IMG/VR virus record: IMGVR_UViG_3300018080_000154
Span: 18,954-82,953 of that record
Length of the DNA: 64,000 bases
From: a virus
Reading direction: 5' to 3' (one strand)
Shown: positions 4,601 through 61,412 of the stretch, piece after piece
Position numbering within the stretch: position 1 is the stretch's first letter
How the letters are laid out: every line of letters starts with the position of its first letter
The notes under the pieces: model-generated
What the model was told of the DNA's origin: nothing
Seen by the model: only the letters and a program-made list of their open reading frames with translations
The model's database searches: none
Translations under genes and position numbers: made by a program

Positions 4601-5175
4601 TTAGATGATTTCCTTATGGCACCGTTCACGGCCATCTCCCAGTTCTTGTTCATTAAAGCCTGAACCGCCGGGTCGTGAAACACAATATTCATGAATGGCC
4701 TAGGAGGGATTCTAATCAATCCACTCGAACTTTTGAACTTTATTTTTGTTCTTTTTCCACCACCACGTTCTTTTGCCTTTGCAAAAAGAAATCTTCTCAT
4801 TCTTGGCGTCATGGTTATCGTGCCACCATCGTGAAGAAGACGAGCAACATTTATCATAGGTCCACCGTGACTGGTTTCACTGTCTGTTAGAAAACCAACA
4901 CGTGCAGTAAATGGTGTTTTCTGGTTTATCTCGATTGCGTTTATCATTTCTTTCGTATCTACCAGAGGCATGTTCTTGCCTTTAAGTAGAATTGTAAGAT
5001 CTGAGTTTTTGATGAATTTTCTGCTGGCAATTCCTTGTCGAACCAAGGTTTGAAGAGTAAGAGCATTTTTAAGAGTGGCTTTCCCAATCTCTTTTTGCAG
5101 TTGTGGAGAAAAGGTTTTCAAAAATCTAGAAAACCTTATATGACCAGTTCCCACCAATTTAATTTCACCCGGCAT
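4597..5175 (-). CDS. Tail completion / HK97 gp10-like protein
   Basis: 192 residues. The pattern fits the HK97 gp10-like or virion-morphogenesis family that joins head and tail: an N-terminal helical segment, a middle region with VARLLHDGGTITMTPRMRRFL, and the family hallmark IPPRPFM followed by a C-terminal helix. It lies between the connector genes and the sheath, as expected. Its stop abuts the upstream gene. Confidence 0.7.
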   Translation of the reverse strand: MPGEIKLVGTGHIRFSRFLKTFSPQLQKEIGKATLKNALTLQTLVRQGIASRKFIKNSDLTILLKGKNMPLVDTKEMINAIEINQKTPFTARVGFLTDSETSHGGPMINVARLLHDGGTITMTPRMRRFLFAKAKERGGGKRTKIKFKSSSGLIRIPPRPFMNIVFHDPAVQALMNKNWEMAVNGAIRKSSK

Positions 5176-5565
5176 CTATGGTGTCCTATCACTAAAATAG
5201 TAACGTACTAGACCAAACGAGGATCCGCTGGAGCTTTCCGCTCCAAACATGTAACGTGTTACATATAGGTCTACCTCTTGGTCGCCCAGTTTCGTTATTT
5301 TATCGCCACGTTTTATATTTACACCAAGTGTGTTCATGTCTTTTGTTCTGACGATTACGTAACCAACAGAGTCTTCGTCTATTCCTTCACGTTTAAGCTC
5401 AAAATCTTTCTCGGACAACCACTTTACTTGTGCCTGAATCGTGATTGTAGATTTTCTTCTTATCCGACCGGAACTTTCTCGTCTAGTGTCTGAATATCTA
5501 GTCGAGTCCTTATCGATAGGCTCTATCTCGATCGGTACGGCAAAAAGTAAGTTTGGTGTAGTCAT
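5176..5565 (-). CDS. Small head-tail joining protein, unassigned
   Basis: 129 residues, mostly predicted strand, with an arginine-rich loop (RRESSGRIRRKS). It lies between the connector and the gp10-like gene, the usual place of a head-closure protein. No motif confirms this. The last codons end one base before the next start, implying translational coupling. Confidence 0.5.
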   Translation of the reverse strand: MTTPNLLFAVPIEIEPIDKDSTRYSDTRRESSGRIRRKSTITIQAQVKWLSEKDFELKREGIDEDSVGYVIVRTKDMNTLGVNIKRGDKITKLGDQEVDLYVTRYMFGAESSSGSSFGLVRYYFSDRTP

Positions 5566-34240: not shown

Positions 34241-34407
34241 AACGTAACTCCCATTCCAATGATTACCGAGTAACTTTTATCTTTATTGCTTTTGCATATC
34301 TTTATTTTGATTTCTCTATCACCGCAGTGATTTTTCTTCTTTTTTGTATCCTCTTTTGTAAGAAAATACTTACCTATCCTAAATATTACATCGTACTCAC
34401 TACCCAT
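34237..34407 (-). CDS. Small protein, unknown
   Basis: 56 residues from ATG 34407 with GGAG nine bases upstream; a longer frame from 34527 would lie wholly within the deaminase gene. Basic, with DREIKIKICKSNKDKSYSVIIGMGV resembling a two-stranded sheet. Function unknown. Confidence 0.45.
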   Translation of the reverse strand: MGSEYDVIFRIGKYFLTKEDTKKKKNHCGDREIKIKICKSNKDKSYSVIIGMGVTF

Positions 34408-34864
34408 GATTCGAGCTCCAACTAAATTGTTCAAACTCTGTATTAGATTGTTCGATTTGTTTTCGAATAAAATCAAACTCTTTACCAAGTTGATACGGTT
34501 CAGAGTAATAGACTTTCTTAATTCCACTGTTCAAAATAACTTTAGTACAATCTACGCAAGGTTGAGTCGTACAAAATAAAATAGAGCCTTCACATGAAAT
34601 TCCAAGACGTGCACATTGAATAATGCAATTCATCTCGGCATGAATACAATCAGCCAACTCAAGACGTTGACCGCTTTTAATTTTGAATTGTTCTCTTACA
34701 CATTTTTTTGGATGTGGTATCCCAGCAGGTACTCCATTGAAACCTGTCGCGATTATTCTTTTGTCCTTAACAAGAACCGCACCAACAGATCTTGAGCAAC
34801 ATGTACTCATTCTTGCACATTCTTGTGCAACGTTCATAAAAAATTCTAAATATCTTCTATTCAC
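34400..34864 (-). CDS. Deoxycytidylate (dCMP) deaminase
   Basis: 154 residues from GTG 34864 (GAGG five bases upstream); a longer ATG frame from 34906 would run into the tRNA-like element. Zinc/catalytic motifs are complete: HAEMN and PCVDC, plus VGAVLVKDKRIIATGFNG. Converts dCMP to dUMP for thymidylate synthesis, matching the ThyX-like and TS-like genes elsewhere in the window. A second, truncated deaminase lies at 55258-55560. Confidence 0.85.
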   Translation of the reverse strand: MNRRYLEFFMNVAQECARMSTCCSRSVGAVLVKDKRIIATGFNGVPAGIPHPKKCVREQFKIKSGQRLELADCIHAEMNCIIQCARLGISCEGSILFCTTQPCVDCTKVILNSGIKKVYYSEPYQLGKEFDFIRKQIEQSNTEFEQFSWSSNHG

Positions 34865-34882
34865 TTCAACCTCTGTATTGTT

Positions 34883-34958
34883 TGACCGGGCGTGGAGTCG
34901 AACCACTTCACTGTGCCTCTCATTTCATCAAGGTCAGCCCCATCCAAGAGTCCCGGTC
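34883..34958 (-). tRNA. tRNA-like element, anticodon uncertain
   Basis: 76 nt. The acceptor arms GACCGGG and CCCGGTC pair perfectly and are followed by a discriminator A. The T arm GTGG-TTCGACT-CCAC is canonical. A short CUC/GGG D arm is possible. The anticodon arm is poor: CCTT can pair with GAGAGG imperfectly, leaving a loop of 8-10 bases; GAA (Phe) is one reading. No CCA is encoded. It may be a degenerate tRNA or a tRNA mimic. It fills the gap upstream of dCMP deaminase. Confidence 0.55.
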
Positions 34959-43331: not shown

Positions 43332-43970
43332 CTATTTTATTTTGCTCAATACTTTATTAAGCTCTATTTCATCAAGAATTTTTTCATAATAGTAAGTGGC
43401 CTGCATATCTGCATTATGGGTGTACAGAACACGTGGATCATATTTTATTGCATTCGTCCACGCACGCCGACCTGCATCTGTACCGCACGACTCATCCCAC
43501 ATTCCCTCTGCCCATCTTATTGCTGCACACTCAGTTCGAGACAGATCAGGAACATATTTTCTTGTCAACGCCAATGAAACTTCAGCGTGAGTTAGAATGT
43601 CGTCACGATATTGACCTTCATAAAATTTCATTTGACACCATACGTTGTCAATTTTTCTATTTCTAAATCCAATTTTGTAAGTGCCGACTTTATTAAGATC
43701 ATGACCTATTGCAACAATCAACGTGTCGAATGTGTCTGTAGTGAATTGATCTTTAATTTTGCTAGATCTTATTTGATCTTCAAGTATTTCATTCACGTTT
43801 AACATGTGATCGACAAGACCACCAGGGTAATTGTTATGATATCGTTGAGATGCTGGATCTGTGTAGAAAGAAGTCGTCTCCAACCACCCAATCAAATCAT
43901 CGTACGACCTATTATTCTTTTTTGCATTGAGCTTTAAAAGACCTAGCAACTTCCCTTTTTGACTAGACAT
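43332..43970 (-). CDS. HD-domain metal-dependent phosphohydrolase
   Basis: 212 residues. Metal ligands appear in order: VDHMLNVNE (His), IVAIGHDLNKVG (His-Asp), ILTHAEVSLAL (His), and HNADMQATYYYE (His/Asp). Such HD proteins hydrolyse nucleotides or nucleic-acid phosphates; phage examples often sit near polymerases. It overlaps the polymerase stop by 28 bases. Confidence 0.7.
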   Translation of the reverse strand: MSSQKGKLLGLLKLNAKKNNRSYDDLIGWLETTSFYTDPASQRYHNNYPGGLVDHMLNVNEILEDQIRSSKIKDQFTTDTFDTLIVAIGHDLNKVGTYKIGFRNRKIDNVWCQMKFYEGQYRDDILTHAEVSLALTRKYVPDLSRTECAAIRWAEGMWDESCGTDAGRRAWTNAIKYDPRVLYTHNADMQATYYYEKILDEIELNKVLSKIK

Positions 43971-46900
43971 TTTTTCTTCCCCTTCTTTTTAGTAGTTATA
44001 CAAATGCGTTTCTTAACTTTAAGAGCATCTGGTGATTGTTTCACTTTAAATGGACTTCTTTTGCCCAACAGAACATCCCTATTTTTCTTTGAAAGAAACC
44101 TGTCGTTATTTATTCTTTCTTCTACATATTCTCTTTTCTTTTTAGGGTCGTTTAACCACTTACGATACATTGTCATTTTCTTTTTTCTTTTTGCTATTGT
44201 TTCAAAAAGATACTGATCCCAATCATATTTAGGAAAAACGCATGCAAGTAGTCTAAGAAGAAGACCATAGATTTTCATATCCCAATAGTATTCTTTACTG
44301 TATGTACCATCAAAATCGTCTACGTGAATACCTTGAAGTCTAGGATTTTTTTCAGTCACAATATACGGGATGTGCATACCAACATAGAATTCTTTTTTTG
44401 ACTTTATCATATCTTCTGCAACTCTAATGTGCACAGCCTTTTGCTTATAGTTTTCTGGCCGACGAGATATTCTTGTCATGATGGTAATGTCTTTTAGATC
44501 AAACTTGCCGGTTTCAAAGATATTCATTTCTTTTCGTATGAAGTCTATGTAGTGCTTCAAATTATAATCTTCATACAGAATCTGTCTTATCAACTCTATT
44601 TGAAGACGTCGACCGTACTCAATGGCATCCCTTTTAATATAGTCAAGACCTTTACCGTAAACCTTATCAACCTTTTCTCCATCGATTTCAATTAGTCTAC
44701 CTGCGTATTGCTTTTTATGAAGTAACAAAATCTTTGAATAAGTTTTTTCATGTTCCAAAACAATATGTGAAATATCTATATTAAAATCTTTTTTGAGATG
44801 TTCTGCATAACCTTCATGAATTTTTTCAAGAACTTTTGACACATCAGGATTGTCATCCATTTTCACAAAGACAGAGTCAGTGTTGTGAAGTATTGTACCA
44901 CCACACGCATCAATAAACGTATGATCTTCTTCAACCTCTAAGTCATATACGTAACCATCTGTTTTTCTAGTGTGTTCTGATTTATATAAAACTCTTTTTT
45001 CTTTCCATCGTTTTATTGCAGCTAGTGATTTCGTATTTGCAGTGTCTTTATTTCTAAATTCAACCCAGACCACATTCTTTTCTTTTTTGTGTCTAAATCG
45101 ATAATAATAATCTTTGTCAAAATAAAAATTGAGTAGAAAAAAAGCCTGACTAACCATTTTCCTACTTTTGCCACCAATGCTTCCAGTATTTAAATCTTTA
45201 TCAAAAAGATCCTTTATGCCATCACCGTATTGATAACCTAAAAATATACCTTCAACAAAATCTCTATTCGACATGCACGAAAAATCTGGAAATTGTTTTT
45301 TGCTACTACCATATCCACATAACTCTTCAAGTAGTCTTGCATACAAAAATGTTTTCAATTTTATTCTTGCGCCATTATGGTACTCAAAATATTCAACAGC
45401 ATCTGAACCAAATACTTTACGTGCAAGACTAAAAAAATATTTTACCTCTTTTTTATTTTTACTACAGTACAGAATAGGTGAAGTAAATTTCAATCTATTG
45501 TGTTTGGATACTGAACCTTCTGCCATGTACCCACCAAGGACGATACCGAAATCTTTATCTAATTTAATAAAACGTTTTGCTTTAAATAATTTATCGGAAA
45601 AGCCTTTTGTCTTTGCCTTTATTCCTACTGTCAATGTTTTATCTCTATTTTTTTCACAAGAGTAATCCATTCTTGTAATAGTGTCTTTAATGTAACCATC
45701 AAAAAGAGATTTAATATCTATACGTTTCACAGTATTCGTAAATTTTAATTTTCTTTTATCTACAGTATCTATTTTTATATCACTAGAATAGATCATTTTA
45801 TCTTCATAATTATTGACAGTAGATAAAGATCCGTTCGAGTAAAAAGAATGATCAGTTGTTACACTAAAATCACTATCTGGACATGTGATATTGTAGAGTT
45901 TTTTACGAGTTTTGTGTCTTATTATTCTACGAACTTTTTGCCATTTACCCTTTCCAGACATTGTACGAATATTGTTATCATTTAGATAAATTATTTCTTT
46001 ACCTCTATCTCGTACAATACGATTTGGGAATGCTGCAAAAATATCACCTATCTTCTCTACTACGACATTATTAGAGTATTTCATCGGTATATAAGTATCA
46101 TACGGAACACTGTCACCGTACAGGGTCTCATAACCAAAATACTCTTTCATCAATTGTTTTGTAAGTTTTATCAGGTAATGGCCAGCCTTTGTAATGCTTT
46201 CAGCAACGTCACGGTCGTAGTATCTATTTCCTCTTTGTGCCATTGTTCCGTACAATGAGTTGGCCATTTCTTTAACGATGACCTGTGTGGCAAATGCTGC
46301 ATCATAATCCTTTGAACCGTGTGGACAACTTAACTGTATTTCTTTGTATTTCTTTCTTTCATCAAGTAGTTTCCTAATGATTGTTGGTAGCATTCCCTTT
46401 TTGTTTTTCTTTGTCCAAAACTCATTGACAGTATTTATCTCAGTGGTTTTCGGTTTTTTCTTCATGAACGTTTCAAGACTAATGTTCCACGTCATGATTA
46501 TTGTTGGATATAGACTTTTAAAGTCAAATACGTACACGTTGTCATGAATTCCTGCCACAGGGTCTAGTACGTAACCACCTACTACGTGTTCCTCTTCTTC
46601 TTTCTTGTCACCAAATGACGTCGACTTAAAGTGAACATCATTCTTATTCGAGTATCGTAAAATGTAGTTGTCAAGAAGTTCGCTTAAATAAAATTTACTC
46701 GGAAACGTACCGCACCACTGACATTCAAGAAGAATAAGTTCAAAGACTTTTAATTTCTGCTCAAGTTGTAGAAGAAGCACGCAGTCTTTGATGTTGTATT
46801 TTTTAAGTTTAGTAGGATTGTCTTGCCAGAGATTGTAAATACCTTCGTTGACTTCGATCTTAACATCACCTATGAAGTAATTACTTATAAAATTGAGACT

Positions 46901-47737
46901 CCAACTCCTGATGTTTTGATCATAATAGAACAATTTCTGAAAACGTTTCATGAAATCTATGTGTGCAACATCTTTCATTGTTGGAAAGTAACCACGATAT
47001 CGTTTCCATCTTTCACGTAGATACGGAACGTCAAAGTTTCCAGAGTTCCAACCAATGATTATGTCATATTTGTAGATGTATTCCCAAATGTCGTTGAGAA
47101 GTTCTTCTTCTGCTTTGTCAGTGTCTTCCTTTAAAAGAAAGAATTTTTTCTTACCATCTTGATCTACTGCTGCAAATGAAAGTATCCTGTCTCTACCTAC
47201 AACGATACCATCTTTTCTATCATCTGTTTCAATATCAAAAAAGATGTATCTAAAATCATTTGATACTTTGATTTCATGATCGATGCAGAATCGTTTGTAA
47301 TTTTTAAGATCACCCTCTAAAAGACTCACACCATGTTTATTGAGAAAATTTTTCAAACGAATACGATCATCTTCATTTCTATCTTCTGGATCTTTTTCGT
47401 TTTCCCATATCTCATTTATAGACTCATTGTCTACATATAGTTTTAGATACTGTCCACATATCTGAATTTTCTCGGTGTATTTCTTTAAAGACCCCCTGGG
47501 CAGTTTTTTCATATCACTCTTGCTGATAAAACAATACCATTTGAAGTCTGTTATCTTGACCTTTAATTTTTTCTTACAATACACACAACGATAGGTAAGA
47601 ACAATATCCCTACCATCGTCGTATGCATTAATAAATGAATCATTTGCCTCCCAGTATTTTTGCAGTTCCACACCAGGAGGTAAATGACCCATAGCCTCAG
47701 TCGGTATATAACCGATGATTTCATAGAGTTGTTTCAT
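43943..47737 (-). CDS. Family B DNA polymerase containing an intein
   Basis: 1264 residues before splicing; about 854 after. An N-terminal Cys pair lies near residue 51. Exonuclease: FFDIETDD (about 166). Polymerase motif A: DFKSLYPTIIM (about 405). Motif B: KEMANSLYGT (about 489). Motif C is split: YGD (540-542), then the intein, then TDS (953-955). The thumb follows, with a Lys-rich C-terminus. Mature protein is a proofreading replicative polymerase. Neighbouring ThyX-like gene abuts by one base. Confidence 0.92.
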   Translation of the reverse strand: MKQLYEIIGYIPTEAMGHLPPGVELQKYWEANDSFINAYDDGRDIVLTYRCVYCKKKLKVKITDFKWYCFISKSDMKKLPRGSLKKYTEKIQICGQYLKLYVDNESINEIWENEKDPEDRNEDDRIRLKNFLNKHGVSLLEGDLKNYKRFCIDHEIKVSNDFRYIFFDIETDDRKDGIVVGRDRILSFAAVDQDGKKKFFLLKEDTDKAEEELLNDIWEYIYKYDIIIGWNSGNFDVPYLRERWKRYRGYFPTMKDVAHIDFMKRFQKLFYYDQNIRSWSLNFISNYFIGDVKIEVNEGIYNLWQDNPTKLKKYNIKDCVLLLQLEQKLKVFELILLECQWCGTFPSKFYLSELLDNYILRYSNKNDVHFKSTSFGDKKEEEEHVVGGYVLDPVAGIHDNVYVFDFKSLYPTIIMTWNISLETFMKKKPKTTEINTVNEFWTKKNKKGMLPTIIRKLLDERKKYKEIQLSCPHGSKDYDAAFATQVIVKEMANSLYGTMAQRGNRYYDRDVAESITKAGHYLIKLTKQLMKEYFGYETLYGDSVPYDTYIPMKYSNNVVVEKIGDIFAAFPNRIVRDRGKEIIYLNDNNIRTMSGKGKWQKVRRIIRHKTRKKLYNITCPDSDFSVTTDHSFYSNGSLSTVNNYEDKMIYSSDIKIDTVDKRKLKFTNTVKRIDIKSLFDGYIKDTITRMDYSCEKNRDKTLTVGIKAKTKGFSDKLFKAKRFIKLDKDFGIVLGGYMAEGSVSKHNRLKFTSPILYCSKNKKEVKYFFSLARKVFGSDAVEYFEYHNGARIKLKTFLYARLLEELCGYGSSKKQFPDFSCMSNRDFVEGIFLGYQYGDGIKDLFDKDLNTGSIGGKSRKMVSQAFFLLNFYFDKDYYYRFRHKKEKNVVWVEFRNKDTANTKSLAAIKRWKEKRVLYKSEHTRKTDGYVYDLEVEEDHTFIDACGGTILHNTDSVFVKMDDNPDVSKVLEKIHEGYAEHLKKDFNIDISHIVLEHEKTYSKILLLHKKQYAGRLIEIDGEKVDKVYGKGLDYIKRDAIEYGRRLQIELIRQILYEDYNLKHYIDFIRKEMNIFETGKFDLKDITIMTRISRRPENYKQKAVHIRVAEDMIKSKKEFYVGMHIPYIVTEKNPRLQGIHVDDFDGTYSKEYYWDMKIYGLLLRLLACVFPKYDWDQYLFETIAKRKKKMTMYRKWLNDPKKKREYVEERINNDRFLSKKNRDVLLGKRSPFKVKQSPDALKVKKRICITTKKKGKKKCLVKKGSC
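44882..46111 (-). mobile_element. Polymerase intein with LAGLIDADG endonuclease
   Basis: Residues 543-952 (410 aa) of the polymerase. Starts with Ser (SVPYDTYI), has block B DSDFSVTTDHSF, two LAGLIDADG-type helices (GIVLGGYMAEGS and EGIFLGYQYGDGI), block F YDLEVEEDHTFIDAC, and ends in HN before Thr+1. Insertion inside motif C (YGD/TDS) makes the polymerase inactive until splicing. Serine rather than cysteine is the first nucleophile. Confidence 0.92.
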
Positions 47738-54961: not shown

Positions 54962-55291
54962 CTATTTTTTAGACAGCATTACTGCATCATTTTCCGTAAG
55001 TTTTTCAACATCTTTAAGAACATTATCGAAATCCCTTTCGTAGTTTTTCCACACCCTGCTCAGCCATTTTGCTTTTGTCTCTTTGGGAAAAACATTAGTC
55101 CTAAGACCAATGTGTTTGAAAACAAGTTCAGGAGTCATAACACTGTTGCCATCCTTATCCATAAGGAATGAACCAAAAAGTCTCTCGTATATTTGTAGAC
55201 GTATTGCAAACTCCTTCCAATTTTCTTTTGTTATCTCTCCCATACCTATCGTCATCGTCAAAAGTATGAGACTCTCTGTTCGTTGTTTAAG
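54962..55291 (-). pseudogene. 3' part of a split conserved phage gene
   Basis: Codons from about 55291 read LKQRTESLILLTM, then TIGMGEITKENWKEF ... HIGLRTNVFPKETKAKWL, the C-terminal part of a widespread small phage protein that normally begins MSLNWD. The matching N-terminal piece lies at 56751-56829. The fragment may still be translated from ATG 55255. Joining the pieces at the shared TAAACAA gives one continuous frame of normal spacing. Function of the family unknown. Confidence 0.7.
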
Positions 55292-55560
55292 ATAGCATGA
55301 GTACAATACACATGACAATCACGTAAGTCTTTATGAGAAAAAATTATAGCATTCATTTCTGCATGAGCTGTCATATAATATTTATAAGGTCTTTCATGTG
55401 TCATCTTGTGTTCATCACAACCTGCGATAAATCCATTATATCCGAATGATACAGGACGATTATCATCTGTTGTAATAACACACCCTACTTTAGATGATGG
55501 ATCCTTAGATTTTAAAGAAACATCATATGCTATCTTCATGAAATAATCTTTCCAATTCAT
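55258..55560 (-). pseudogene. Truncated second dCMP deaminase
   Basis: 100 residues. The N-terminal part is a good deaminase (DPSSKVGCVI, HAEMNAI, DCHVYCTHA). Directly afterwards, where PCxxC should follow, the frame crosses the insert junction (near 55290) and reads about 12 unrelated residues to a stop. The two Cys zinc ligands are missing, so it should be inactive. Confidence 0.75.
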
Positions 55561-55568
55561 AATAACCC

Positions 55569-55763
55569 TTATGATATTCTATTCCAAGATTTTTTACTCT
55601 TTTGTATATTATTAACACGTTTATTATTAATTAATCTATAACCATGTAGTAAAGCTATAGCTACTGCAATTCTATAATCTATATTTATTAAAATTGCATA
55701 ACCTATCGTGAATAAAATTAACTCTAAAAATATTAATATGATTAATTTGATTTTAATATTCAT
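55569..55763 (-). CDS. Small membrane protein in the insert
   Basis: 64 residues. Two closely spaced hydrophobic stretches (IKLIILIFLELILFTIGYAI and IDYRIAVAIALLHG) then a basic tail. AT-rich codons unlike the core genes. Overlaps the Trp-rich gene stop by four bases. Function unknown. Confidence 0.5.
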   Translation of the reverse strand: MNIKIKLIILIFLELILFTIGYAILINIDYRIAVAIALLHGYRLINNKRVNNIQKSKKSWNRIS

Positions 55764-56623
55764 TTAAACTTCCTATTCCTTTCCATCCTACGTAGTGTAT
55801 CTTGAGGCCTCTCACCTTCTTCCATTTCATAACTACAACCTAAAACTCCACCTTTCCATGATCCTGATCTTTCTCCTACCTCATCACTAAATGCTATTTC
55901 AATAGATTGTTTATTCTTTACCATAAACCATGGCCATGAACACCATTCAAACCATTTTCTACGCCATTGCATTCTCTCCACAAATATCCAAGCCTTTACA
56001 TGTTGTACTATACCTGAATTTAATTTATATGAATAACTATAAACATCATTCCACCGACCATCAGGTGGTAAGTCGTTTTGAACTCCATTATTCCATCTAG
56101 CATGCCACTTGGTTGTGAATTGATTGCTGGTATCTATCCATATAGGACTCCATGATCCATCAGGCATCATTACCATTTCTTTATCATTCTGAAACTCCCA
56201 ATTAAAGAATGGTAGGAAGAATGACCAATCAAGTATATGAGATGACCCGTCGCTATTCCACTCATGGGCCTTCTTCCAGATTTTGATATTGATCATCCAA
56301 TCATGTATTGAAATTCCATTCAACCTAGCCTGATAATCTTTAGGTTTCAATACCCCATGTATAGAAAACCAAATAGAGATAAAAATTAACCCAATATGAA
56401 GTTGAATATCATCATAATTATCACCATCATATAGATTCAATTCCAATGCAATATTCTTATTATAAAAACATACTTCCCAACTAAACCTATTTAATTTACC
56501 TCGGAAGTGAGTCCACCACAAAGACCAATGTTTATTATTTGCCTTAGCTAAATTCTGAGTCCAAAAATACATATTATCCTCTGCTTTCTTCTGATGCTTA
56601 CTTAAGTTTATTTTAACCTTCAT
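55760..56623 (-). CDS. Trp-rich protein in the insert
   Basis: 287 residues, unusually rich in Trp (HWSLWWTHF, RWSWEVCF-like, WMINIKIWKK, WFEWCSWPWFM) with regular strand spacing. It has an AGGAGA site. No enzyme motif. AT-rich codon choice differs from core genes, suggesting recent arrival. Similar Trp-rich proteins occur in other phages next to tRNAs; function unknown. Confidence 0.6.
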   Translation of the reverse strand: MKVKINLSKHQKKAEDNMYFWTQNLAKANNKHWSLWWTHFRGKLNRFSWEVCFYNKNIALELNLYDGDNYDDIQLHIGLIFISIWFSIHGVLKPKDYQARLNGISIHDWMINIKIWKKAHEWNSDGSSHILDWSFFLPFFNWEFQNDKEMVMMPDGSWSPIWIDTSNQFTTKWHARWNNGVQNDLPPDGRWNDVYSYSYKLNSGIVQHVKAWIFVERMQWRRKWFEWCSWPWFMVKNKQSIEIAFSDEVGERSGSWKGGVLGCSYEMEEGERPQDTLRRMERNRKFK

Positions 56624-56658
56624 TATCTATTCTCTCCTCAATTCTATCATTACTAACC

Positions 56659-56829
56659 TCATAAGTGGGAGAGGAGGGATTTGAACCCCCACACTCTGTA
56701 CGAATACCGGATTTTAAGTCCGATGCGTCTACCAATTCCGCCACTCTCCCATTGTTTACCATCGTCACGTGTTTCAAAACATACTTCATCTTTATTTTCG
56801 ATTCTTGTTAAATCCCAATTCAATGACAT
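56659..56829 (-). pseudogene. 5' part of the split gene, reading into tRNA-Leu
   Basis: ATG 56829 (GGAG, seven bases) opens MSLNWDLTRIENKDEVCFE then TRDDGKQ. This is the N-terminus of the family whose C-terminus is at 54962-55291. After codon 26 (56752) the frame enters the insert, runs through the whole tRNA-Leu gene and stops at 56659. The last ~30 residues are therefore tRNA sequence, not protein family sequence. Confidence 0.7.
56666..56750 (-). tRNA. tRNA-Leu (anticodon UAA)
   Basis: 85 nt, class II. Acceptor stem GGGAGAG/CTCTCCC; D arm with AATTGGTAGACGC; anticodon arm around ACTTAAAATC gives UAA; long variable arm; T arm GGG-TTCAAAT-CCC. Discriminator A; CCA not encoded. It starts one base inside the split-gene insert. 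It supplies UUA decoding, useful to an AT-rich phage. Confidence 0.93.
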
Positions 56830-57491: not shown

Positions 57492-58412
57492 TTACTCCAT
57501 CAATTTCTTTTTGAGTTTTGTTTTCATTTTCGCAAGAGACTTCTTAAGATCTTCTGCAGTTCCACTCAATACTGTTTCATACATCTCAACCTTGGTTTTG
57601 AGCTCATCAAATTTCTTGAGTTTGTTTTCAACAACATACTCTTTAAGTTCACCAGCCTCATCAATTTCCTTATTGTAAACTTCAATGTCATATTTAATTT
57701 CAGCGACAAGTGACTTCCACATCCCTTTCTTTGCTTCCTTTGTATCAATGAGAGGTATCGGTGTTATGTCGACACCGTGAACAGAAAGTTCTTCAAACAG
57801 TTTCAACACATTTTCATAGACCTCTGAAGAAGAGTAAGGAAGAAAATAGATACCACCAGCACTTCTTACGTTGATCGACCTTCCATACATCCTGATGTAT
57901 TTAAGGACTGATGACCTTAACTGTGTTCCAGTGTAACAATCGCGATACGTATTGTAGCGATTCAGAATTTCCTTTCGGTATTTATCGGCATTGTCACCCT
58001 CGATACGTAGTTCATGCGTCTTCTTGTTGAAGATTACCCTGGTTTCTTTACGGAAATCGATATCGGTTTCAATATCGTTAACGTCTGCGTCTACAATCAT
58101 CCACGATGCCTCGTCCTCATCTGAACCGTCTTTTATTTTCTTGTAGAACAAATCGGCTCTTCTTTTCTTACGACCACCATTTGAGTTAAGTTTCTCAACC
58201 ATATCAGCAAGAGTATCTCTCATTGACCGTATCGCAGCCTCTTTTGAACTTACAACCTTTGCAATGTTATCTGGTATTCCAATGTTTTTAAGTATTTCTG
58301 AAAACGTTGTGTACGACATTTGAAAATCTGGAATGGCCCAATGAATGATCCAACCAATTAAGGGATAGCCTTCAATCTTCGGTAACAGTTTATCAATGTT
58401 TTTCTTTGACAT
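57492..58412 (-). CDS. Partner protein of the MoxR/VWA module
   Basis: 306 residues. A helical N-terminus, a middle strand-rich domain (ETRVIFNKKTHELRIEG; GRSINVRSAGGIYFLP), and a C-terminal coiled coil ending in Lys repeats. Immediately downstream of MoxR and VWA genes. Proteins with this layout recur beside phage MoxR genes, but its function is unknown; it may be an adaptor or substrate. Confidence 0.55.
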   Translation of the reverse strand: MSKKNIDKLLPKIEGYPLIGWIIHWAIPDFQMSYTTFSEILKNIGIPDNIAKVVSSKEAAIRSMRDTLADMVEKLNSNGGRKKRRADLFYKKIKDGSDEDEASWMIVDADVNDIETDIDFRKETRVIFNKKTHELRIEGDNADKYRKEILNRYNTYRDCYTGTQLRSSVLKYIRMYGRSINVRSAGGIYFLPYSSSEVYENVLKLFEELSVHGVDITPIPLIDTKEAKKGMWKSLVAEIKYDIEVYNKEIDEAGELKEYVVENKLKKFDELKTKVEMYETVLSGTAEDLKKSLAKMKTKLKKKLME

Positions 58413-58460
58413 AATGTGTCTCCTTGTTTTAATGCCACAGTGTGAAGTTATTCAAATTAA

Positions 58461-59573
58461 TTATTCGTCGTCAAGACCTAGATGCTTTTTGCAAACCATA
58501 ACCAATGTCTGCTGAGTTGTTTTTATTGCATCATCAAGTTTATGATTTTTCTTTCTATCGCCAAGACCTTCCAATGTTTTCTTTGCGTTCTTTATTTTCT
58601 TGTGACCTTCAACAGGATGAATTTCACCCTTATCCAATAGGTCTGCAATTTCTTGAACTGCGTCTGTCAACTCAATGATTTGTTCACCAAGTGGGTTTGC
58701 AAATTTGTTTACCAGTTTTCTTACGGGTTTTATTTGATCCGGCACAGACCAAAGAACATTGCAAAGAATATCGAGGTCGTCTTCCGTTACCTCCGAGTTG
58801 TCATTCAAATATGCATAGGCTTTCAAAACCCTAATACATTGTACCCATCTTCTATCAGATGTGAAAATTCCTTCCTTCTCAACCGATCGTCTAAGTTCAA
58901 CAAGAATGTCAAGTATTTTATCTGGTATTACCATTTCGTCTACTTCTTTTTGATAAGACTTCAGTTCTTCAAGTGTTATCGTTGGTATTTTCACCCGTGA
59001 TTTTGCATTTGCAATTTCATCAAACAATTCTCTTGCCATTGCATCGGACTGAATTCTTGGTACATCATAACGAAGAGCAAATCTATCATAAAGGGCTGCA
59101 AGTTCTTCTGCCTGGGGTATCTCATTTGATGCTGAGAATAAAACCTGAAGAGGTATCTTCGTTGGTGAACTACCGTTGTAGAAAATCCTTTCATTAATGA
59201 TTGGAAGAAGTGTGTTAAGAATAGCACTCGATCCTTTGAAAATTTCATCAAGAAATGCTATGTTTGCTTCTGGTAGTTTACCTTCAACAACTCTTTCGTA
59301 TTTGTCATGTTCCAGTGCTTTTAATGATAACGGTCCGAATACTTCTTCTGGTGTGGTAAATTTACTCATCAACCATGAAAAGTATTTACCACCTACCGCA
59401 CCACAAAGAGCATCACAGATTGCAGATTTTGCAGTACCAGGTGTTCCCAACATGAACAACATTTCTCTTGCCAATAATGCTGTCAACATGCCACGAATTA
59501 AATCTTGGCGTTCTTTGAATTTCTTACCCAATGCTTCTGCAATTGCTTTGATTTTGTTTTCTTTCTTAGACAT
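58461..59573 (-). CDS. MoxR/RavA-type AAA+ ATPase
   Basis: 370 residues. Walker A GTPGTAKSA, Walker B FLDEIFKGSS, then LLPIINERIF and sensor-1 ASNEIP, with a RYDVPRIQ sensor-2-like region. MoxR ATPases remodel partners or insert metals together with VWA proteins. The adjacent VWA gene is directly upstream. Confidence 0.8.
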   Translation of the reverse strand: MSKKENKIKAIAEALGKKFKERQDLIRGMLTALLAREMLFMLGTPGTAKSAICDALCGAVGGKYFSWLMSKFTTPEEVFGPLSLKALEHDKYERVVEGKLPEANIAFLDEIFKGSSAILNTLLPIINERIFYNGSSPTKIPLQVLFSASNEIPQAEELAALYDRFALRYDVPRIQSDAMARELFDEIANAKSRVKIPTITLEELKSYQKEVDEMVIPDKILDILVELRRSVEKEGIFTSDRRWVQCIRVLKAYAYLNDNSEVTEDDLDILCNVLWSVPDQIKPVRKLVNKFANPLGEQIIELTDAVQEIADLLDKGEIHPVEGHKKIKNAKKTLEGLGDRKKNHKLDDAIKTTQQTLVMVCKKHLGLDDE

Positions 59574-59586
59574 AATGTGTCTCCTT

Positions 59587-60951
59587 TTATTTTGTGTGAA
59601 GGCTTGAGTTTGCTTTAATAATGTCTTGAACGTAGTTAACTTCTCCGTTTGAGTTTATTGTTGCAGATGTATCTGCAATTTGTCCAAGTTGTTCCATGTT
59701 AACTGGTTCGGTCTCATCAATCATCTCAATGAGATGAAGTCGTACTTCTGTTTCTTTCTTCTCATTTTTAAGATGTTGAAGTTGATCATCCGTTAAATGA
59801 CAATGACCATCTGTGATGAATACAATATCTGCAGGTTTCAACGTCGGTTGCTCTTTTCTGATTTCAAATGCATCAACCAACGGTTCGTAGTATTCTGTCC
59901 CTCCTCCTGAAAAGAAAGTTATCATATCCATTTTATCCTGAATGGTCATTGTCTCGTCTTTTGTCCACGCCCGCTTCCATTTCACCTGTGTGTCAAAATA
60001 GATAACAGCAAACCCACGTTTCTGTTTTTCAGCCAAAATTGACAGTGCCAAAACAACTGACTTAGACCATTCTTCATTGGTTGGTGATCCACCGTACCGC
60101 ATCGATCCACTTACATCAACACAACAAATAATTGGACCATGACCTGCTCTTTCCTCTCCTTTCAAATTGTAGTTAAGAAGATTGTTTTCGTGCATATCTT
60201 TCATGAACAATAACGGTTGACGTTTGAATTTCAGTAACTCATTAGGTAGTGCACGAGAAATGTCGTTACCAATTGTGATGTCAACAATTTCATCATAACC
60301 ATGAGTAGGATTCTGATCCACTGCAGTTTGAACAATGTTTTTGAATCTACCAACAAGATCTGCAATCCGTTTGAAGATTTTATTATTCAAAAGAGTTTGA
60401 GCAAGTTTGAATTTCTCTTCATGTGGTAGACGTTCCAATTCACCTGACGATGCACCTGCAAAAATACCTAGAGCATCTTGTGCCTCTTCTGCCTTTTCTT
60501 GTGCCTTCTTCATTTTGTTTCTTGCAGCAATTCTAAAACGTTGGCGATTTTTTGATCTTTCATCCTCATTATCGCCATCCTCAGATTTTTCACGACGTAG
60601 TAACTCATTCAAAAATTGTGGTCCAATTTCTGCCGTTGCAATTGCTGAAGATACTGTGTCAACCAAAGTATGTGATCTAAGATCTTTGTACTCGTGTAGA
60701 CTCATCATCTCTTCAATCAATTCCCTTTGAGTACTTGGACCAGACTCGTTTACGTTTGGCTCCATTTTATAAAATGAATTGAAAATGTCGTTCGTAAAAT
60801 CAAGAGACATGTTTTCGTCATAGTCATCATCTTCTGTTTGTGTAAGTTCTCGTACCTTACTCGAGCTTGAAACTATTTCCTTGAAAGTAAGTTTATCGTA
60901 CGAGTCCTGATCGATGACATTATTTGGTGGTTTAGAAATTTTGAGTTTCAT
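59587..60951 (-). CDS. VWA-domain protein (ViaA/CoxE-type)
   Basis: 454 residues from ATG 60951 (AAGGAG). N-terminal helical ~200 residues; C-terminal VWA with MIDAS DVSGSM, a YFDTQV strand and FITDGHC for the third site. Classic partner of MoxR; together they could act as a phage chaperone. Confidence 0.8.
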   Translation of the reverse strand: MKLKISKPPNNVIDQDSYDKLTFKEIVSSSSKVRELTQTEDDDYDENMSLDFTNDIFNSFYKMEPNVNESGPSTQRELIEEMMSLHEYKDLRSHTLVDTVSSAIATAEIGPQFLNELLRREKSEDGDNEDERSKNRQRFRIAARNKMKKAQEKAEEAQDALGIFAGASSGELERLPHEEKFKLAQTLLNNKIFKRIADLVGRFKNIVQTAVDQNPTHGYDEIVDITIGNDISRALPNELLKFKRQPLLFMKDMHENNLLNYNLKGEERAGHGPIICCVDVSGSMRYGGSPTNEEWSKSVVLALSILAEKQKRGFAVIYFDTQVKWKRAWTKDETMTIQDKMDMITFFSGGGTEYYEPLVDAFEIRKEQPTLKPADIVFITDGHCHLTDDQLQHLKNEKKETEVRLHLIEMIDETEPVNMEQLGQIADTSATINSNGEVNYVQDIIKANSSLHTK

Positions 60952-60962
60952 TTTTTTTCTCC

Positions 60963-61412
60963 TTATCGGTGAGATTCTAAGCCGTAACCACCTGCTGGAT
61001 CCATTTGACATTCTTGTTCTTGTTCTATCATTTGTACCCACGTTTTACAGAGTAAAGCGTTTCGTAAATCTCTGAAAAATTCTCCTTCAACTCTTGACCA
61101 AGTCCCATCATCAGAATCCAGATAACCTGAAGAAGCCTCAGTAACACCATTCGGTAAACACAATTTACATTCTATTTCTATACCCCACGTGCAATCATAG
61201 AAACTTACTTCAAGTAGATTCGGTTCGTACTCTTCATAACCAGTTTCTTCACATTGACCTATGATACTATCACCAGCATAAAAAGAACATTTGCCTCTTT
61301 CATAATGAGTTGGATCAGCCTTGTTGTACGTACCGCTTGATGTTGTACCATTCTCTCTTATTCTACGTATCAATAGTCTAATAAGATCTTTTTGTAGTAA
61401 TTCAAGTTTCAT
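60963..61412 (-). CDS. Small Cys-containing protein, unknown
   Basis: 149 residues from ATG 61412 (AAGGAG). Contains KCSFYAGD ... CEETGYEEYEPN and IEIECKLCLPN, perhaps a metal site. Upstream of the VWA gene in the transcript. Function unknown. Confidence 0.5.
   Translation of the reverse strand: MKLELLQKDLIRLLIRRIRENGTTSSGTYNKADPTHYERGKCSFYAGDSIIGQCEETGYEEYEPNLLEVSFYDCTWGIEIECKLCLPNGVTEASSGYLDSDDGTWSRVEGEFFRDLRNALLCKTWVQMIEQEQECQMDPAGGYGLESHR

Follow-up and report, generated by a model that had tools for sequence, protein, structure and literature searches.

Within the 64-kb stretch of DNA analysed here (the window, which forms the end of a metagenomic virus contig of 82,953 bp), a small phage gene is split in two by an insert that carries a tRNA-Leu gene, an Acb3-family gene, an ORF for a small hydrophobic protein and the first part of a dCMP deaminase gene (Table 1). 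We assume, with a probability of roughly 80%, that the insert results from the illegitimate, moron-like capture of an operon fragment of a donor phage, by which the target gene was disrupted. The contig belongs to a tailed phage; it has a sheath-protein match and a B-family DNA polymerase that is distantly related to those of cyanophages.

Table 1. Positions of the split gene, the insert and its cargo in the window
Feature	Position	Strand	Details and basis
5' fragment of interrupted family gene	56752–56829	-	MSLNWDLTRIENKDEVCFETRDDGKQ; 26 aa; family HMM 29.8 bits; ORF call
3' fragment of interrupted family gene	54962–55294	-	YLKQRTESLILLTMTIGMGEITKENW...; family HMM 100.6 bits; best-scoring joins cluster at 56752/55294
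TAAACAA, 5' copy	56752–56758	-	within codons G-K-Q
TAAACAA, 3' copy	55283–55289	-	within codons L-K-Q, target gene's own frame
Insert	55295–56751	-	~1,457 bp; join grid, filler control, trinucleotide profile
tRNA-Leu (UAA), intact	56665–56750	-	ARAGORN; Rfam tRNA 61.8 bits at 56750–56666
287-aa Trp-rich Acb3-family protein	55760–56623	-	Pfam PF25187 1e-39; PHROG 7203 6e-28
64-aa hydrophobic protein	55569–55763	-	ORF call; start overlaps Acb3 stop (ATGA)
Truncated dCMP deaminase	55258–55560	-	PF00383 1.3e-14, positions 1–80 of 102; PHROG 174
Separate full-length dCMP deaminase of same phage	34400–34906	-	PCVDC present

The split gene and its family

The two pieces that flank the insert are the halves of one phage protein family, as had been claimed in an earlier reading made from the sequence only. 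Joining across the TAAACAA copies (removal of 1,469 bp) gave an open frame of 132 aa, MSLNW...DDGKQ-RTESL..., and the joined protein aligned end to end with a single family at 130.6 bits. Each half alone also matched the family HMM, which was built from homologues without the window's own protein; a three-sequence seed alignment was used to draw the family loci. The best homologue of the joined protein (L008) is 51% identical. The family is encoded at 50 viral loci, and those inspected contain it as a contiguous gene; homologous genes of other phages lack the insert. Apart from one weak unrelated match, a comparison of the flanks revealed no synteny between these 50 loci and the window beyond the target gene. 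As their flanks have no further clearly related gene in common with the window, the carriers document the unbroken gene without being relatives of the phage. When IMG/VR was searched, with the joined protein and Acb3 as queries and also with the MoxR ATPase, terminase and deaminase, neither a close relative nor any member of the same phage lineage was recovered, and a degenerate pattern scan revealed no empty site at the DNA level; records very close to the window may be missing from the collection scanned.

The term "familiar" that had been applied to the protein was overstated, as neither Pfam nor PHROG nor NCBIfam holds a model of the family. The structural model of L008, aligned with 34 other family members, shows one compact fold (pLDDT 96.6), and the insertion site corresponds to a turn between two short strands (residues 18–20 and 26–28). 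In structure searches this fold matched only phage proteins of unknown function, and nothing significant was found in the PDB. An unannotated family homologue is also present in a Microviridae record (L003, MH572520.1, 1255–1632); the others reside in tailed-phage or viral contigs.

The 5' fragment has kept its own Shine-Dalgarno sequence (AAGGAG), and its frame continues into the tRNA gene up to a stop at 56659. From established tRNA biology, maturation of the tRNA would be predicted to cleave the transcript at the left border. No Shine-Dalgarno sequence was detected at the possible starts of the 3' fragment. The target gene is disrupted: the frame of the 5' fragment reads on into the tRNA, and the 3' fragment is left without a ribosome-binding site. 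Most likely it has lost its function. The frame of the chimeric deaminase ends with TGA 2 nt before an internal ATG of the 3' fragment (window 55258–55255, minus strand); coupled translation or re-initiation of the 3' fragment from M-T-I-G-M is therefore conceivable to some extent.

Borders of the insert and the TAAACAA repeats

TAAACAA was found at both junctions and in the same codon phase, as the sequence-only reading had reported. Its further statement that excision joins DDGKQ to RTESL agrees with the open frame of 132 aa; the spacing of the family is better matched if the residues YLKQ are retained. The 3' flank, when read upstream in the target frame, is TAT CTT AAA CAA CGA ACA GAG AGT CTC, or Y-L-K-Q-R-T-E-S-L. 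Its counterparts are K-L-N-P-V-T-E-S-L in L008 and L-K-Q-S-T in the homologue L009. The join that keeps YLKQ reached 140.1 bits, 9.5 bits above the 7-bp join, and its linker has exactly the length of that in L008. When 1,965 in-frame joins were compared on a grid, the top scores lay around 56752/55294. YLKQ scored better than 97.3% of 3,000 random four-residue fillers, whereas 2.7% did as well, and the length alone accounts for ~6 of the 9.5 bits. Given the score of the YLKQ join, the borders of the insertion probably do not coincide with the 7-bp repeats. The presence of the repeat alone is weak evidence, because a 7-mer is shared in 2.2% of random pairs of 20-bp stretches of the window and a repeated 7-mer is found in 2.2% of 25-bp stretches. 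In AT-rich genomes, short repeats on both sides of an insert can pass for target duplications. Judging from the aligned sequences, both copies are probably native K-Q codons and not a target duplication, and they would have been separated by 5 bp before the gene was broken. On the YLKQ reading, the intact gene probably contained TAAACAATATCTTAAACAA.

Alternatively, the TAAACAA copies could be the true borders, generated by a 7-bp target duplication or by a crossover at microhomology, with an insert of 1,469 bp and a linker that is four residues shorter. The exactness of the repeat and its identical phase at the two junctions are in favour of this explanation, and the residues I-L-N that follow T-H-A in the deaminase fit a later motif of deaminases once a loss of eight residues is allowed, which would move the border back to the repeat. 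However, such an internal deletion would be an extra requirement, and in view of the family score that is lower by 9.5 bits and of the chance rate of repeated 7-mers we consider true borders at the TAAACAA copies unlikely.

The match of the deaminase to its family ends at residue 88–89 (T-H-A), which equals position ~55294, and the right border is placed at ~55294 because the broken target gene and the broken deaminase independently point to it. The left border, at 56752/56751, lies next to base 56750, where tRNA-Leu begins. The insert thus starts at the first base of the tRNA-Leu(UAA) gene or one base before it and ends inside the dCMP deaminase gene before PCxxC, with a resolution of a few bp. 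Its trinucleotide profile is the most deviant of 240 stretches of the same length, and its GC content is at the 3rd percentile. Deviating composition, in a metagenomic virus record, would also be compatible with a chimeric assembly or an amplification artefact. This would however require that two independent false joins fell on neighbouring bases of a single gene without any loss of sequence, and the junctions do not share a repeat of assembler length. A chimeric assembly is also argued against because both flanks meet without an evident gap, and an artefact is very unlikely on these grounds.

Cargo of the insert

The cargo had been described as a tRNA-Leu, a Trp-rich protein, a membrane protein and a deaminase cut at the junction, and all four were recovered, the third as a small hydrophobic ORF. 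The tRNA-Leu(UAA) is the only tRNA of the window. The 287-aa protein matched PF25187 with 137.2 bits (curated cut-off 27) over model positions 16–245 of 245, and the same model was matched by all 46 of the 46 aligned members. The protein is intact and includes the C-terminal motif GERSGSWKGGxxGC...LRRMExxRKF. It has the full C-terminal domain and the conserved motif in common with the Acb3 family but differs by ~40 extra N-terminal residues, and the aligned viral relatives are just 26–38% identical to it. The protein is predicted to be a CBASS inhibitor, and the anti-CBASS activity ascribed to it is taken from the Pfam name. Among viral contigs its relatives are widespread, with 236 recovered, and in bacterial genomes few (10) were found. 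A deaminase or TM neighbour was not detected in the Acb3 neighbourhoods of 80 viral loci. No solved structure was found for the 287-aa protein by sequence, its model gave no significant PDB match by fold, and a literature search on Acb3 among openly accessible papers yielded nothing relevant.

The 64-aa ORF and the deaminase gene come after Acb3 in tight, operon-like spacing. The product of the 64-aa ORF is probably a membrane protein; no homologue was found in phage records. The deaminase shares the N-terminal 89 residues, including the HAE motif, with phage dCMP deaminases (PHROG 174 / PF00383), but an alignment with full-length deaminases showed that it is cut at residue 89 (T-H-A), before PCxxC, and that its last 11 codons are out-of-frame sequence of the target gene. 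Since neither the zinc ligands of the PCxxC motif nor the C-terminus is present, the insert copy is presumably inactive. At two other loci (L142 and L143, ~5001–5450) the N-terminal motif of a dCMP deaminase is present twice, with a short copy at ~5001 and a fuller copy from ~5140, possibly a partial duplication.

Origin of the insert

The sequence-only reading had considered a novel intron-like or excisable element. An element of this kind, whether spliced out or excised as a site-specific cassette, would make the gene whole again at the RNA or DNA level. The halves are indeed in frame and well conserved, and the borders are clean. However, the insert is nearly all coding and its longest non-coding gap, between the tRNA and Acb3, comprises 41 nt, and therefore no group I or group II core fits. 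A search for such cores by covariance models had been suggested; the Rfam scan gave the tRNA alone above threshold and no catalytic RNA core of a group I or group II intron, and neither a group I 3' G nor a group II GUGYG start is present at an in-frame splice border. The insert thus differs from these introns in both core and border bases. Transposons and insertion sequences differ from it by their terminal inverted repeats and transposase: inverted repeats are absent from the insert ends, Pfam and PHROG searches revealed neither a homing nuclease nor a transposase among the insert ORFs, and the 7-bp repeat is better read as native codons. A 10-bp inverted repeat that overlaps the 3' junction was judged to be a chance occurrence. 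Neither an integrase nor any other recombinase nor a reverse transcriptase was found in the contig, and a crossover at the 7-bp repeats would remove four codons of the native gene. An element that excises or splices is most improbable in the light of these results.

The other possibility named in that reading, a recent illegitimate insertion, is supported, as far as illegitimate insertion is concerned, by the split, by the intact homologues and by the lack of mobility genes. The donor fragment would have consisted of tRNA-Leu, Acb3, the small membrane protein and the first 89 codons of a dCMP deaminase. Illegitimate, non-homologous recombination, presumably by end joining, would have placed it in a beta-hairpin loop of the small conserved gene, and hardly any target sequence, if any, would have been lost or duplicated. 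The insert would probably have been kept by selection for its cargo, as Acb3 and perhaps the tRNA may offset their own cost in the manner of a phage moron. Support for capture comes from the phage's own full deaminase elsewhere and from the insert being the compositional extreme of the window. A donor with the order tRNA-Leu/Acb3/TM/deaminase was not found in the viral records searched.

Illegitimate recombination has been described as an attractive way to explain mosaic phage genomes with borders devoid of homology (PMC3029335), and of the mechanisms considered it fits the insert best. Like phage morons, the insert represents extra DNA of foreign composition with potentially useful cargo, its borders are without evident extensive homology and it has no mobility gene. 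In contrast to morons, which are located between two genes that are contiguous elsewhere, it lies inside a gene and breaks it. It also differs by carrying a truncated passenger gene. A promoter or terminator of its own was not detected above background (13 promoter-like matches vs 11.7 in shuffles; a single terminator-like site inside Acb3).

The start of the insert exactly at the first base of the tRNA counts against capture as a mild coincidence under random end joining; chance is our default assumption. The mature 5' end of a tRNA is the point made by RNase P. In principle, the cassette could have been inserted via an RNA copy after its processing, or by an enzyme that acts in trans and recognises the tRNA gene, an idea to which we give hardly any credence; if true, it would be a tRNA-anchored route for phages to pick up anti-defence cargo. 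Capture by illegitimate recombination, which we prefer, does not reveal a new mechanism, and the event looks like an ordinary though unusually clean insertion. It provides a well-resolved snapshot of phage cargo capture, in which the broken target and the broken passenger agree on the right border and a gene of an anti-CBASS family moves together with a tRNA gene.

Elsewhere in the window, the ORF of the B-family DNA polymerase (1,264 aa, 43943–47737, minus strand) contains an intein-splicing match at residues 562–952 that interrupts the polymerase domain; the match is just under the Pfam cut-off and indicates a probable intein. At 57492–61041 (minus strand), a vWA-domain protein, a bpMoxR-type AAA+ ATPase and a DUF6744 protein are encoded in a run, a MoxR-vWA-type system in a phage.
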